Assembly (NCBI GenBank): GCA_021794335.1
Contig: JAJYQZ010000045.1
Coordinates: 1 to 5,058, forward strand
DNA length: 5,058 bases
Source: a bacterium
Lineage (GTDB): Bacteria; SZUA-79; Acidulodesulfobacterales; Acidulodesulfobacteraceae
Direction: 5' to 3'
Of this stretch, positions 1-3,875 are shown piece after piece. The position numbers were made by a program, and so were the translations under genes. Each line of letters opens with the position of its first letter. Positions within the stretch are counted from its first letter, which is position 1. The notes under the pieces are model-generated. The model ran no database searches. It worked only from the letters and a program-made list of their open reading frames with translations, and was not told the DNA's origin.

Positions 1-912
1 GCTATGGTAAAATCCTTCATAAATTTCCCTTGCTTCTTCGGATAACTTGATTTCGCCTTTGATGTTAGACATATTTTTTAATTCGTTGAATAGATTCTCC
101 GGCGGGGCAGGGTTAATAGGCAGGGCTATTTCCGTTTTATCCTGCTGTGCGTAGAATATGGTAAACCTCTGCATAAACCCGCTCTGGCGGTCGGTCTCTT
201 TTATGTTCTCGGAAATCCAGGCGATAGTTGAAGCGGTTAATATGTTTATGGCTGGTTCATCTATCCTGAAAAGCTGTCCGGTTCCGTTGGGTCCCTTGAT
301 TAGTTTCTTTTGTGAAAATCCGTCGTAAACGTCCGTCAGAAATTCTTTAAAACCTTTGTTATAGCTTCTGTCTAATCCTTTAAGCCACCCGCCGAACTCG
401 CCGTGGAAAAAAGTTCCGTAAGGCCTGCTTTGAGCAATCATGTAAAATGCCTCAGGGGTTATATCGTTCGGAAAAATGAGGGAGCCGCCTTCGGTGTCGA
501 ACTTTTCGAGTATCTGCTTTACTACCCTTAAAACGGTGCTTTTTCTTCCGCCGGATTTCATAATTAATAAAATATATGTATTGGGATACAATTTCCCCCC
601 AGTCCATTTAATAAAAACGTTCTTTTCTAAAACTGTCGCAAGCGTTGTTAAACCTGCGCCGAACGCGAAAAAGTCCGGTGCGTCCGTTATTCCGTTGCAG
701 TATCCCACGAAATTGTATAAAAATGAATTATGCGGGATTAGATTATAAATACTCGGAGTATCGAGAACCTTTGCGCATTCTATCTTTTCTGAAAGGTTTT
801 TATCGCAAAAAATTCCGGATGTTAGTTCGCATTCAGATTCTTTCATAAGAACGGGACAGAATACCTTTTGCCTTTCGGCAGGTTTAATGGTTATGGGGGC
901 TATTATCGGCAT
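1..912 (-). CDS. DUF3987-type P-loop ATPase (probable mobile-element helicase), C-terminus beyond window
   Basis: The first 304 residues are present and the frame stays open to the left edge, so the C-terminus is missing. ATG at 912-910 follows AGGAG (920-924) with a 7-nt spacer, which decides the start. A Walker-A-like loop, MKSGGRKSTVL (residues 118-128, K124 S125), has the degenerate S-G-x-R-K-S form typical of DUF3987 rather than GxxxxGK[ST]. A Walker-B-like stretch FFHGEFGGWL ends a strand at E172. LTDVYDGFS (192-200), a sensor-1-like strand INILTAS (222-228) and GFMQRF (245-250, possible arginine finger R249) follow in family order. Members are RecA/AAA-like proteins often encoded with, or fused to, primase domains in phages, satellites and plasmids. 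A role as replicative helicase is inferred from this family and from the Toprim gene directly upstream, which it overlaps by 10 bases. The N-terminal 50 residues carry four spaced cysteines (19, 28, 36, 46) of unknown meaning. Confidence 0.82.
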   Translation of the reverse strand, partial: MPIIAPITIKPAERQKVFCPVLMKESECELTSGIFCDKNLSEKIECAKVLDTPSIYNLIPHNSFLYNFVGYCNGITDAPDFFAFGAGLTTLATVLEKNVFIKWTGGKLYPNTYILLIMKSGGRKSTVLRVVKQILEKFDTEGGSLIFPNDITPEAFYMIAQSRPYGTFFHGEFGGWLKGLDRSYNKGFKEFLTDVYDGFSQKKLIKGPNGTGQLFRIDEPAINILTASTIAWISENIKETDRQSGFMQRFTIFYAQQDKTEIALPINPAPPENLFNELKNMSNIKGEIKLSEEAREIYEGFYHS

Positions 913-1802
913 ACGGCGACTCCTATTTTTTCTTTTAAGATAAAGGCTTCGTTTAAGTCTTTAGCCTTAAAGGTTAATTTATGTATTTTGCTATTTTTTA
1001 CCTGTTGGACGATTTTATCTTCGGCTTCCGTGCCGGCGGCATCGTTGTCTAAAGCAATTATTATATTTTCATAGCCCGATAAAATTTTTATAACTTCGGA
1101 ATTAAGATTATTTGTTGAGTTTAGAATTATCAAGTCGTATAATCTATTATTTTTCATTTTTTCGGCAATCGATAATCCGTCAAACATTCCTTCGGCTACG
1201 AAAACAAGCTCCTTTTTGCTATCCTTAGCAAATAACGAATAAGCGCTTTTCCCGATATTCATTTTTATTTTTGGGTTCCTAATAGCATATCCGTCTAAAA
1301 TATTTTTGATGCCTACGGCAGAATTTAGATAAGTCTTATTATCTTTAACAACCGAATAATTTATCTGTCTAAGCCAGTCCGGCATGAATGTAATTGCCCT
1401 TGAGCGCAAATAATTAATTAATTCAACGTCGATTATTTTGGCGATAGCGGTTATTTCAATACGGTTAGGCTTATCTTCACGGCGGTCGAAAGAAAAAGGT
1501 CTTTTTTCTTGGCCGCCGTTATTTATTTCAGCGTTTTCAATATCATTTAAAAACTTTATAGCGTCTAAAAAATCTAAATTCTTAACCGTCATTACAAGGT
1601 CAATCCAACTGCCGCCGCAACCGCTGCCGAAGTCTTTCCAAAGCCATTTCCCGTATCTTTCTTGAATCGAGATACTCGCTGTATTCTCGTCCCGATATGC
1701 TGCTGTTGCCATAATCCTATCCCCGGTTATTCTATATGGAAGACCGAGGAAATTCAGGATTATTTCGGCGTCAATAGTTTTTAATTTTTCCGTATCAATC
1801 AT
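903..1802 (-). CDS. Toprim-domain primase-like protein with degenerate zinc-finger region
   Basis: Numbered from the ATG at 1802, the product has 299 residues. Residues 29-75 align by eye with the DnaG/CHC2 zinc-binding region: ATAAYRDENTASISI matches the CPFHxExTPSFxV block and FGSGCGGSWIDLVM matches the FGCGxGGDxIDFVM block. Of the metal ligands only C62 remains, so zinc binding is probably lost. The catalytic Toprim domain looks intact: FVAEGMFDGLSIAE (E204, G205, D208), IIIALDNDAAG (D252, D254) and the late KDLNEAF (281-287). Proteins of this type make RNA primers or process DNA ends using Toprim-bound Mg2+. Primer synthesis for element replication is inferred from the DUF3987 gene that overlaps its 3' end. 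An in-frame TTG at 1829 would add nine residues but lies inside a hairpin (1813-1832). The ATG is preferred because MIDTEKLK is a natural N-terminus, although its ribosome site is weak. Confidence 0.8.
   Translation of the reverse strand: MIDTEKLKTIDAEIILNFLGLPYRITGDRIMATAAYRDENTASISIQERYGKWLWKDFGSGCGGSWIDLVMTVKNLDFLDAIKFLNDIENAEINNGGQEKRPFSFDRREDKPNRIEITAIAKIIDVELINYLRSRAITFMPDWLRQINYSVVKDNKTYLNSAVGIKNILDGYAIRNPKIKMNIGKSAYSLFAKDSKKELVFVAEGMFDGLSIAEKMKNNRLYDLIILNSTNNLNSEVIKILSGYENIIIALDNDAAGTEAEDKIVQQVKNSKIHKLTFKAKDLNEAFILKEKIGVAVCR
920..924 (-). promoter_or_regulatory. Ribosome binding site AGGAG for the DUF3987 gene
   Basis: AGGAG lies 7 nt before the ATG at 912-910 and inside the last codons of the upstream primase-like gene. 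The two genes overlap by 10 bases, so this site indicates independent or coupled initiation rather than a fusion. Confidence 0.75.
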
Positions 1803-1812
1803 AAACTTTAAT

Positions 1813-1832
1813 CGCTTGCCAACGAGCAAGCG
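1813..1832. repeat. Perfect 7-bp inverted repeat between two operon genes
   Basis: CGCTTGC (1813-1819) and GCAAGCG (1826-1832) are exact reverse complements around a 6-nt loop. The structure lies in the short gap between the basic-protein gene and the primase-like ATG, ending 11 nt before that ATG. No T-run follows on either strand, so it is not a simple terminator. In mRNA it could affect initiation of the primase-like gene or stabilise a processed end; this is inference. Confidence 0.6.
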
Positions 1833-1846
1833 CCTAAATCAGTTAT

Positions 1847-2251
1847 TTATTTTGCTTTTATATACCCAACCGGTTTCGCTTCCTTTGACGTCAAAGGAAG
1901 TGGGGTCGGGGCAAAGCCCCGATATACTGCTTTTAGAATCTTTTTCCTTTTCCTCTTTGCCTTTCTATTGAGCCTTTTTTGTTCTTTTATTATTTTCTTT
2001 TCTATAGACTTAGTGAACTTATCGAATGATGCTTTGATTTTATCTTTCTCTTTAAAGATTATTTTTTCGCCGCAATACTTGGATACCGTTTTTGCTAATT
2101 CGGACGGCGGCATAAAATCAACTTCGCAAAGGGTTACATGTCCAGCGTTGCGCTTCACAACAACCGGGTTAAGATATACCACGTTCACAAGCATTGATTG
2201 CATAACTTCTTTGATTTCTTTTTCTACGAATTTTTTTGATGTTTCTTTCAT
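1847..2251 (-). CDS. Small basic hypothetical protein with a palindrome-encoded C-terminus
   Basis: The 134-residue product is not recognised. Residues 1-60 look globular, with a hydrophobic strand MLVNVVYLNPVVV (20-32). Residues 63-108 are extremely lysine/arginine-rich and probably helical (ending RKAKRKRKK), which suggests nucleic-acid binding. The last part, from R111 through the GFAPTPLPLTSKEAKPVG segment to about 129, is encoded by a palindromic mini-element (1866-1921). Removing the element plus one flanking hexamer gives a frame ending KAVYKSKINN at a TGA (1839-1841), that is 116 residues. This shorter product is probably the ancestral form. ATG at 2251 comes 2 bases after the integrase stop, and GGGG in the integrase's last codons may act as ribosome site, so translation is likely coupled. 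Its position between integrase and primase suggests an accessory DNA-binding role (excisionase or replication accessory), but no family match supports that. Confidence 0.65.
   Translation of the reverse strand: MKETSKKFVEKEIKEVMQSMLVNVVYLNPVVVKRNAGHVTLCEVDFMPPSELAKTVSKYCGEKIIFKEKDKIKASFDKFTKSIEKKIIKEQKRLNRKAKRKRKKILKAVYRGFAPTPLPLTSKEAKPVGYIKAK
1860..1927. repeat. Palindromic mini-element inside a gene, flanked by ATATAC direct repeats
   Basis: Two palindromes sit side by side. The first, 1879-1900, is a perfect 22-bp palindrome centred on GACGTC. The second has a 7-bp stem TCGGGGC/GCCCCGA around AAA (1906-1922). The block is bounded by identical hexamers ATATAC at 1860-1865 and 1922-1927, as expected of a 6-bp target duplication around a 56-bp insert (1866-1921). 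It is GC-richer than the surrounding sequence. It is translated in frame as part of the basic protein, in the manner of Rickettsia palindromic elements and other coding mini-elements. Insertion and duplication are inferred; the palindromes and hexamers are directly visible. Confidence 0.65.
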
Positions 2252-2253
2252 AA

Positions 2254-3255
2254 TTACCCCAAATATCGATTAGTGATTTCGATGCGTTCGTGCCCGAGAT
2301 CCCGACTTATTTCTTGCCGAATCTCTTTATCATATGCTTTAAATTCTGATTTGCTTAAGCCCGTTTCTGTCATAATTCTATTTTGCCAATCTTGTTTAGT
2401 CTCCCCGGTCCGCGCCCTACACTCAATACCGCCGTATCCCTTCGCTTCCCAAGAGTCCTTATATGTCTGATGAGCTGTCCAGTGGCGCTCGCCGTGGTAA
2501 TGAAAACTCGCCCCCGTCTCTTTCCTGAATGCCTCTAAAGCGTGATTTGCAAAGCTTTTCCCTTCCTTTAATGTCCCAAGATTTAAATTTTTAAGTCCAT
2601 TATCCTTTAGAAAATCCCTTACCTCTATTAACGTTTGCTTCTGTTTCGGCGTTAATTTTATTTCCCGCGCCCTTGAATTTTTAGCCCCGTCCCCTTTCGC
2701 GTTTATTTTTAAAATGTCTTTTGACAAATCTTTTGATGTTAATTTAACAAGCTGGCTTTCCCGCAACCTTAAATTTACGCTCTGGACGTCCGCCGCATTT
2801 TTCACAATAGAGTATCTCAAGTCGCCCGTTTGCTGATATTTTTCAGAAATCCACGTTTTAAATGCGCCCGCGGCTTCCCTCGTGTTTTCTTTGTTTATGC
2901 CGTCCTTTTCTGAAATATTTCTTGACAAGCCAAAATCGCCCGCTTTTATTGTATGTAAATCTTTGTTCCCTGAATATTTAACGATGTTGTTTAACGATGA
3001 AATATACGAGTTTGCGGTCGATAGCGATATTTTGCCGGACTCGGCTTTTTCCCTTAATCCGTTTGCAACTTTTATAATATGCGATTGTTCTAAATGCTTA
3101 AGGCTCTTTATTTCTGCCGTACTTTTAATTTCTTTTAATGTAGCCGCGATTTTATCCGTCGTGGCCGAACCTCGACCGATGAAAGCGGTTATCGTTTTTG
3201 ATAAAATCCCGACTGCGGCATTATTTCTAAATGTCAATATTTTCCCATCGCTCAT
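2254..3255 (-). CDS. Tyrosine recombinase (site-specific integrase, Integrase_1-like)
   Basis: This complete 333-residue recombinase cuts and rejoins DNA through a 3'-phosphotyrosine and probably integrates and excises the element. Residues about 30-110 form an all-helical core-binding domain (Phage_int_SAM_2-like). The catalytic domain contains every expected residue: first Arg in NLRLRES (R163), beta-hairpin Lys near KGDGAK (about K187), H254-x-x-R257 in FHYHGERH, H322 in SRDLGHERI, and nucleophile Y331 in NRYLG, three residues from the end. The LGHxRxxxTxxYLG ending is characteristic of the Integrase_1 family. ATG at 3255 overlaps the upstream TGA as ATGA and follows AGGAA (3261-3265) with a 5-nt spacer, so the start is secure. 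Placement second in a replication operon, rather than alone beside an attachment site, means recombinase and replication proteins would be expressed together. No attachment core is identified here. Confidence 0.92.
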   Translation of the reverse strand: MSDGKILTFRNNAAVGILSKTITAFIGRGSATTDKIAATLKEIKSTAEIKSLKHLEQSHIIKVANGLREKAESGKISLSTANSYISSLNNIVKYSGNKDLHTIKAGDFGLSRNISEKDGINKENTREAAGAFKTWISEKYQQTGDLRYSIVKNAADVQSVNLRLRESQLVKLTSKDLSKDILKINAKGDGAKNSRAREIKLTPKQKQTLIEVRDFLKDNGLKNLNLGTLKEGKSFANHALEAFRKETGASFHYHGERHWTAHQTYKDSWEAKGYGGIECRARTGETKQDWQNRIMTETGLSKSEFKAYDKEIRQEISRDLGHERIEITNRYLG

Positions 3256-3551
3256 AAGATTTCCTTTTTTAATAAAGTCGTTTTAAAAAACCTTTTGTAA
3301 AATTCGCGGATTGCAAGAAAGTATTTTCTGCGGCTTTCGTGAGATAATGCAAGCATTTCCGGAGTGTTAAAAAATTGCACTGCGGTTTGATTTTTAATGC
3401 CTTTCGTGTGGTAAATCGATTTACTTTCGCAAAAGGTTAAAAATTTAAAAATGACAAGGTTTTTAAACTTTTCTGTTTGCTGTAAATTTTGGTGTTTCTG
3501 CGCGATAAAAAGCCGTCTATGTTGTGCGTAAAAATCTACTAAATTTCCCAT
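3252..3551 (-). CDS. Small stand-alone core-binding (SAM-like) domain protein preceding the integrase
   Basis: The 99-residue protein resembles only the N-terminal core-binding domain of tyrosine recombinases. Residues about 30-92 include FKFLTFCESK and ALSHESRRKYFLAIREFYKRFF, which matches the LSxxSxxRxLSAlRxFYxF pattern at the end of such domains. It has no catalytic domain: no HxxR, no LGH and no terminal Tyr box. It shares an ATGA overlap with the integrase, which already has its own core-binding domain, so this is not a split half. ATG at 3551 is the first start after an in-frame TAG (3555-3557); the ribosome site is weak. It could assist recombination directionality or arm-site binding, or it could be the relic of a second recombinase. 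Both ideas are inference; the domain resemblance is by eye. Confidence 0.7.
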   Translation of the reverse strand: MGNLVDFYAQHRRLFIAQKHQNLQQTEKFKNLVIFKFLTFCESKSIYHTKGIKNQTAVQFFNTPEMLALSHESRRKYFLAIREFYKRFFKTTLLKKEIL

Positions 3552-3595
3552 TTTCTACATTCGCCCCGATACAGTTTTAAATATCAAACCTTTTT

Positions 3596-3780
3596 ACGCT
3601 TTCGCGACGGTAGGTGAAACCAAGACATCCGGGAACCTATATAATATTCGTATCCGTTAATACCGCCGTAAGAGGCGCAATCAACAAGATATACGATTTT
3701 GCGACTTTTTCTATCCCAACGGGATAGAGAAAGGCGCTGGCAAGCACTATCAAAACCAGTAACACCAAGCTGGACTGCCG
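3596..3780 (+). ncRNA. Candidate structured RNA or structured DNA element upstream of the integrase operon
   Basis: This stretch is visibly GC-richer than the AT-rich sequence on its right and is rich in self-complementarity. It contains CGGTA (3608-3612) facing TACCG (3661-3665), TAGGT facing ACCTA near 3611-3640, CGCC-GTAAGA-GGCG (3664-3677), the long hairpin at 3701-3737, and CTGG/CCAG pairs at 3737-3775. The main hairpin pairs better in the rightward transcript, where one U-G pair would be an A-C mismatch on the other strand. No known RNA family is recognised. It might instead be the operon leader, an origin or a recombination site. The boundaries are guesses from composition. Confidence 0.3.
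3701..3737 (+). repeat. Long hairpin: 16 pairs, one mismatch, AAC loop
   Basis: CTTTTTCTATCCC (3705-3717) pairs with GGGATAGAGAAAG (3721-3733) around AAC, with a single T-G wobble (3709/3729). After one A/G mismatch (3704/3734) the stem continues with GCG (3701-3703) against CGC (3735-3737). No T-run follows, so it is not a typical terminator. It is by far the strongest secondary structure seen outside the genes. Confidence 0.8.
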
Positions 3781-3813
3781 ATTTTAACTTTTAGACTTGC
3801 CAATAACTTTTTT

Positions 3814-3835
3814 AAAAAATCGGACTTATCCGACT
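3814..3835 (-). terminator. Rho-independent terminator-like hairpin, leftward
   Basis: Read leftward, AGTCGGA (3835-3829) pairs with TCCGATT (3824-3818), including one G-T wobble, around TAAG. The final Ts of the stem run on to give TTTTTT over 3819-3814. It sits upstream of the integrase operon and downstream of a leftward TATAAT (3873-3868). It could end a short leftward transcript, attenuate the operon, or insulate it from readthrough. The stem is AT-rich and modest. Confidence 0.5.
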
Positions 3836-3848
3836 CAATTTCCTATTC

Positions 3849-3875
3849 GGTATAATTCAAAATTGTAATTATACC
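3849..3875. promoter_or_regulatory. GGTATAATT inverted repeat carrying a consensus -10 on each strand
   Basis: GGTATAATT (3849-3857) and AATTATACC (3867-3875) are exact reverse complements, 9 nt apart. Each arm contains a perfect TATAAT: 3851-3856 rightward and 3873-3868 leftward. No good -35 box is seen at the usual distance on either strand, so activator dependence or a purely operator function are both possible. The dyad fits a dimeric repressor site for the divergent control region. Confidence 0.45.

Follow-up and report, generated by a model that had tools for sequence, protein, structure and literature searches.

When a reading frame runs into a palindromic repeat and ends there, the repeat may be a coding insertion that has lengthened the protein, or a structure with a history of its own into which the frame happens to run. 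This question is raised by a stretch of 5,058 nt from an Acidulodesulfobacteraceae bacterium (contig JAJYQZ010000045.1, assembly GCA_021794335.1), which was analysed as a whole and is here called the window. On its minus strand follow a small protein, an integrase, a basic protein, a hairpin block, a Toprim primase and a DUF3987 protein, and this gene order suggests that the window is part of a mobile element. Its genes are the following.

3252..3551, minus: small protein of 99 aa, preceding the integrase
2254..3255, minus: tyrosine recombinase-like integrase (weak Pfam match, E 0.017; phrog_216, 1.6e-4), upstream of the basic gene
1847..2251, minus: basic protein of 134 aa (ORF list and predicted fold), the block encoding its 3' end; residues ~1-70 are predicted to be KH-like, a long basic helix comes next, and the tail, residues 118-134, is block-encoded and modelled with low confidence
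903..1829, minus: Toprim primase-like protein (profile matches), downstream of the block
1..912, minus: DUF3987 helicase/primase-like protein (profile matches), truncated by the window end

The 99-aa protein is present in 10 of 13 loci, and the remaining three loci start within the integrase gene. Searches of phage records and of plasmid records returned no matches, and viral contigs searched with the primase, the basic-protein profile and a 22-mer gave none by any of these queries. Upstream of the small-protein and integrase genes, a non-coding region is conserved (window 3556-3870, minus), with a counterpart at the same place in L001, L003, L005, L006, L008, L010, L012 and L013. This region is a candidate large structured RNA according to RNAalifold, which predicts 45 pairs, 11 of them showing two-sided changes in one or more of nine sequences, compared with 9 of 44 pairs on the opposite strand; it has no Rfam match in the window.

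The block and the end of the reading frame

An earlier note on this DNA had described a palindromic block between two copies of ATATAC, and this architecture is indeed present: the hexamers at 1860-1865 and 1922-1927 enclose a 56-bp block (1866-1921), which holds a 22-bp palindrome with perfect 11-nt arms (1879-1889/1890-1900) and a second hairpin with 7-nt arms (1906-1912/1916-1922). Read on the minus strand, the block consists of H1 (TCGGGGC-TTT-GCCCCGA), CCCCA, H2 (CTTCCTTTG-ACGT-CAAAGGAAG) and then CGAAACCGGTTGGGTA. Its features, and those beside it, are given below.

1859..1928, minus: structured hairpin block, a full match to covariance model R1 (92.9 bits), the window being one of the six R1 training rows
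1906..1922, minus: hairpin H1, TCGGGGC-TTT-GCCCCGA, in which two-sided changes preserve pairing in other copies, for example L080 and L085
1879..1900, minus: hairpin H2, formed by the 22-bp palindrome; its stem is of type 1, and at least three stem sequences occur at that place
1864..1867, minus: GGGT, 3' arm of a possible outer pairing P2, with the partner ACCC at 1903-1906 (position 1906 also belongs to H1)
1813..1832, minus: downstream hairpin with a constant loop, CTCGTTGG, and a variable stem, just before the primase ATG at 1800-1802

The loop motif of the downstream hairpin recurs in 9 of 13 copies, the window counted. Compared with dinucleotide shuffles, the block folds as RNA with a z of -3.4, and the block together with the next hairpin folds as DNA with a z of -5.3. 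Rfam 15 gave no covariance-model match at E<=1 in the window, and eight matches at E<=5 over nine loci, none of them on the element core.

The block is also translated, as had been noted, being the 3' terminus of the minus-strand ORF of 134 aa, and removing it with one hexamer does yield, read by eye, a frame ending KAVYKSKINN at TGA 1839-1841. From the hexamer pair and this neat frame, it had been proposed that a coding palindromic element of 56 bp was recently inserted in frame, with duplication of an ATATAC target, and that a 116-residue protein thereby became one of 134 residues. The relatives argue against it. A search for homologues of the basic protein found 29, which are 46-88% identical, and 25 of them have a block-encoded tail; the other four (P0023, P0024, P0026 and P0027) end before the block and were left out of H2 typing. 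The note itself had named a tail conserved in distant homologues as evidence to the contrary, and relatives down to 46% identity have one. When related assemblies were checked for the block, it was found in 12 of 13 related loci from the genome scan as well as in dispersed copies in other genomes of the phylum. The exception, L013, lacks the block, but its basic gene is truncated, and a block-free yet otherwise similar gene copy was not seen among the 13 loci and 29 homologues. The hexamer stands on both sides in one of 16 copies, namely the window alone, and as none of the 15 others compared has it, the ATATAC pair itself is probably due to chance. Nor does the KSKINN ending, taken in the note as that of a block-free protein, require a block-free ancestor, since P0002, P0005, P0006 and L001 have the block and yet end KSKINN. 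A recent insertion with target duplication is rejected on the conserved tails, the block-bearing loci and the single hexamer pair, and we regard it as exceedingly improbable. What stands is a palindromic repeat that lies in a gene of a mobile element, has relatives at other places in related genomes and has a history partly separate from that of the gene; its recent arrival does not.

The encoded tails differ among the homologues and are read in several frames: they are GFAPNPTSFDVKGSETGW-like, PLPLTSKEAKPVGY-like (another frame), TSVRTLEPGW (a different stem) or cut off at TSF. Of the 12 block-bearing loci, six have their stop codon within H2, and the ORF of L010 ends just ahead of the block; what is conserved is therefore not the peptide, and translation of the block looks incidental. 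The window has GACCCC where most relatives have GAACCCC, and because of this one missing A its frame is shifted relative to theirs; L006 deviates at the same site (GACCCCC). The translated tail of the window is a by-product: the ORF reads through into the block, in a frame changed by one base.

Conservation of the shape and exchange of the H2 stem

That the block is maintained for its shape and not for its translation is indicated by comparison with the coding DNA beside it. Over nine same-type pairs, which were chosen by us, the block is 89-100% identical, compared with 48-63% for the 290 bp of preceding coding DNA. Three same-type pairs omitted from this set give coding and block identities of 96% and 95% (window-L001), 54% and 94% (window-L005) and 50% and 89% (window-L008). 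In comparisons between different types, the block of the window is 59-72% identical and the coding DNA 51-61%. Type-2 blocks are identical among L002, L003 and L009, although their genes are only 58-62% alike.

Pairing is retained in 134 of 137 cells of H1 (21 distinct full-length elements) and in all 149 cells of H2 with letters on both sides (21 distinct elements), figures which favour the model because the alignment was fitted to it. For this count 24 of 29 rows were used and five antisense part-matches omitted; L085 gives no H2 cell, L096 gives one, and some dispersed copies have only a partial H2. When whole 3' arms of H2 were shuffled, the mean was 0.61 and the maximum 0.86, and none of 1000 shuffles reached the observed value. 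The outer pairing P2 is weak: it is kept in 80 of 84 cells, and 35 of 1000 arm shuffles did equally well. The alternative H2 stems CTTCCTTTG, CTTCTTTTTG and CAAGCGT, with their partners, are evident in the raw sequences; the first two resemble each other and CAAGCGT differs. Among the listed H2 arms there are no G-U pairs, and for this reason DNA-level copying or recent exchange fits at least as well as selection on an RNA.

To follow the H2 types, a gene tree was built from 43 gene cores with the tail excluded, proteins without DNA being typed from their tails. The fewest type changes on this 43-row tree are nine; shuffled labels need 14.6 on average, and as few as nine were reached in 0 of 200 shuffles. 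As the types are thus clustered on the tree, they are also inherited between swaps. The well-supported inner branches (14 of 40) by themselves require four changes for type 1 and as many for type 3. H2 has evidently been replaced whole several times, which is why near-identical genes can differ in type, as do the window (type 1) and P0001 (type 3), 98% identical over 109 core columns. Compared with L001, the window is 63% identical in the integrase gene, 95% in the basic core, 96% in the block, 87% in the primase gene and 79% in the DUF3987 gene; the sharpest break in identity falls at the start of the basic gene and not at the block.

Dispersed copies and their KH-like neighbours

The distribution of the element was examined in 30 genomes of the phylum, which are MAGs and probably incomplete, the order and phylum searches having given the same 30. 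Model R1 was built from six copies, mostly blocks of A1-type genes (those matching the basic-protein profile), and a second model from seven dispersed copies. Matches at E<=0.01 to the first model were found in at least 13 of the 30 genomes and such matches to the second in at least 18; both combined give copies in at least 20. These genome counts are lower bounds, with 141-150 first-look candidates scored in most genomes, and they include G023 on weak matches only (best E 7.9e-4). Six weak R1 matches (L087, L088, L093, L094, L095 and L098) were dropped, the architecture being absent by eye. On these sequence comparisons, the block belongs to a dispersed hairpin-repeat family of one bacterial phylum.

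The dispersed copies inspected are often longer, with additional hairpins upstream, and one (L021/L073) sits between two convergent ordinary genes, named by eye. In L112/L115 and L104 (G001:C104, G006:C73) a further palindrome is nested in the H1 loop. A separate repeat, TGCTCCCG(T/C)TGGTCGCATATT, lies beside other palindromes in the same genomes (L105, L106, L116 and L118). L046 has a basic gene with an internal deletion and retains H2; in L059 the integrase gene directly precedes the primase gene, the basic gene and the block both being absent between them; and L065 and L069 have distant KH-like genes beside other integrases, with no element at the gene ends. Because of the last three loci, neither gene nor block is universal. 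The H1 motif is not confined to the lineage either, since a 23-mer of H1 and GAACCCCAC has one match among viral contigs, an exact copy near 2799-2821 of L191, which is G+C-rich and has no match to the window proteins searched.

Within the family of integrative elements to which the window belongs, the block occupies the 3' end of the KH-like gene. The model of the basic protein has a KH-like fold and a long helix; its Foldseek matches are weak (best E 0.04), and its VIA Z of 7.5 lies in the range that the tool calls ambiguous. A profile search of the loci uncovered a second family of about 130-160 aa near some dispersed copies (L024, L086, L104, L119-L125 and L171-L176). One predicted model of this S1-KH-like family matches the NusA S1-KH region (E 1.7e-6 to 3.1e-5), and its 12 best matches are titled NusA or NusA-holding transcription complexes, the chain identity being partly inferred. 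Three S1-KH-like proteins tested have no relevant Pfam match, and PDB sequence searches found no relatives for the alignment of either family. The two families were aligned over 43 columns with modest confidence. By eye, several S1-KH-like genes adjoin excisionase-like HTH genes.

In the 30 genomes, 15 of 18 A1-type gene matches have the block at their 3' end. Among 29 other element loci, eight have an S1-KH-like gene within 200 bp, always on the opposite strand and on the 3' side of the element (a ninth lies at 1.3 kb), and ten have a second integrase 725-878 bp away on the other side, with 72-100% identity to the query, itself from one of these ten loci (one more is 28% identical); 16 have neither neighbour within about 1.5 kb. 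The stretch between element and second integrase is near-constant in length and has many conserved blocks (L141, L142, L148, L149, L152, L159, L161, L162, L167 and L103), and no large ORF was found in it in L120, L123 and L125. Of the 20 element genomes, 17 have KH-type genes, and none of the 10 others does (Fisher p 1e-5). This association is partly circular, since blocks of A1-type genes made up most of the first model; KH-type genes and blocks also ride on the same mobile elements. The block has the same orientation as the KH gene in window-type elements and the opposite one in S1-KH elements, which weakens same-transcript autoregulation as a general rule.

Competing explanations, known parallels and meaning

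In our view the block is a dispersed repeat with a structure of its own, linked in an unusual way to KH-like genes that integrative elements carry. The reading that we favour, and hold to be somewhat probable, is that it is a member of a dispersed hairpin-repeat family, kept as a shape and exchanged at H2, which stands at the 3' end of a KH-like gene and acts as an RNA 3'-end structure, perhaps bound by the KH protein. It would thus form the structured end that separates the integrase and KH genes from the replication or cargo genes further downstream, and its RNA may stabilise or partition the element transcript; that the KH protein, distantly akin to the NusA S1-KH region by prediction, binds the block is the weaker part of the proposal. 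A wider version, in which the integrative elements of this phylum carry their own control module, a KH protein derived from NusA S1-KH with a cognate, cassette-swapped hairpin RNA that tunes cargo transcription, perhaps together with the non-coding region before the integrase, seems to us rather unlikely.

Nearly as much is accounted for by a selfish repeat, REP-like or RPE-like and non-autonomous, which would spread from genome to genome and between mobile elements, be tolerated where genes end and be linked to KH genes by hitchhiking, an explanation which we take seriously without calling it probable. It is favoured by the spread over at least 20 of 30 genomes, the 16 of 29 loci with neither neighbour, the copy between convergent genes, the identical type-2 blocks in diverged genes, the nested palindromes of some copies and the absence of G-U pairs from H2. 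Mildly against it, no target duplication or empty site was seen, and one fixed site is held in 15 of 18 A1-type gene matches. Y1 transposases, the known movers of REPs, show no association with the element in our counts, which speaks mildly in the same direction: 11 of the 20 element genomes have them, as do 8 of the 10 others, counted in probably incomplete MAGs with a Pfam model that does not single out RAYTs. A plain intrinsic terminator of the integrase-KH transcript would suit a G+C-rich hairpin at a gene 3' end, but a terminator scan of window 1500-2400 found no site where 1.0 was expected, and a T run is absent after both H1 and H2; on these two grounds we give it very little credence.

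The genes that follow the block differ: some loci have primase/DUF3987 genes there, and L004, L005, L008 and L009 have defence-type genes (OLD/GajA-like ATPase-TOPRIM proteins, type II/III methyltransferases and HerA-like helicases); by eye, the ORFs of L011 are near-identical to those of L009. Because the cargo varies in this way and the block contains GTTGGGT, which fits the integron core motif GTTRRRY, an attachment or integron-like site was considered. The element of L008, the one examined, has a complete tRNA-Arg gene at one side and, ~15.9 kb away, a 50-bp stretch that repeats the 3' end of this gene with 86% identity (the two 3'-end repeats are at 24186-24235 and about 40016-40065 of the contig), and both integrase and block (35656-35724) lie between these repeats. 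As the block is well inside the element, it is not the attachment site of L008, and such a site is rejected for this element. The block might still be a recombination joint, at which homologous or site-specific exchange replaces the modules that follow a constant integrase-KH module. The differing cargo, the near-identical genes with different hairpin types and the mosaic of window and L001 would agree with this; the L008 flanks (in that one element), the position of the sharpest break against L001 at the start of the basic gene, and the many copies outside such modules speak against it, and we find it distinctly unlikely.

Among named systems, the palindromic elements of Rickettsia, to which the earlier note had likened the block, are the nearest parallel. 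In passages of two published accounts, these RPEs of Rickettsia and Wolbachia are palindromic repeats of 100-150 nt inserted in ORFs without breaking the frame (PMC4316617, PMC3767692). As far as these passages go, both are dispersed palindromic DNA able to lie in reading frames, and orthologues can hold the repeat at the same site (PMC4316617, PMC3767692). The likeness does not extend to size, host or frame preservation: the block measures 56-65 bp, occurs in other bacteria, namely in MAGs entitled Deltaproteobacteria or simply bacterium, is often at the 3' ends of mobile-element genes, and is entered in several frames that can stop inside it or, as in L010, before it. REPINs, in excerpts of their description, are hairpin repeats too, mostly extragenic and predicted to fold in ssDNA or mRNA (PMC3116915). 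The block differs in showing no association with Y1-family transposases in the counts over the 30 genomes, in being read through by translation and in its link to KH-like genes. Like integron attC sites, it is a folded palindrome at a gene 3' end near a tyrosine recombinase; unlike them, it lies off the exchange point in L008, the one element examined, and its orientation to the gene is variable. Processive antitermination (put RNA, LoaP, lambda N-NusA), as outlined in part of its literature, likewise involves structured nascent RNA or NusA-type partners in phages and mobile elements; a corresponding role of the block would be an analogy, and the block has no Rfam match at the cut-offs applied. 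A literature search, mainly of titles and abstracts, turned up no account in which KH/NusA-like proteins are paired with repeats of this kind.

The locus is a clear case of a reading frame that enters a structured repeat conserved as a shape and not as protein, and similar tails can therefore mislead both annotation and calls of insertion. The replacement of whole stems among near-identical genes provides a natural series for comparing selfish with functional hairpins. If the link to KH proteins is true, these mobile elements would carry a NusA-like control system.
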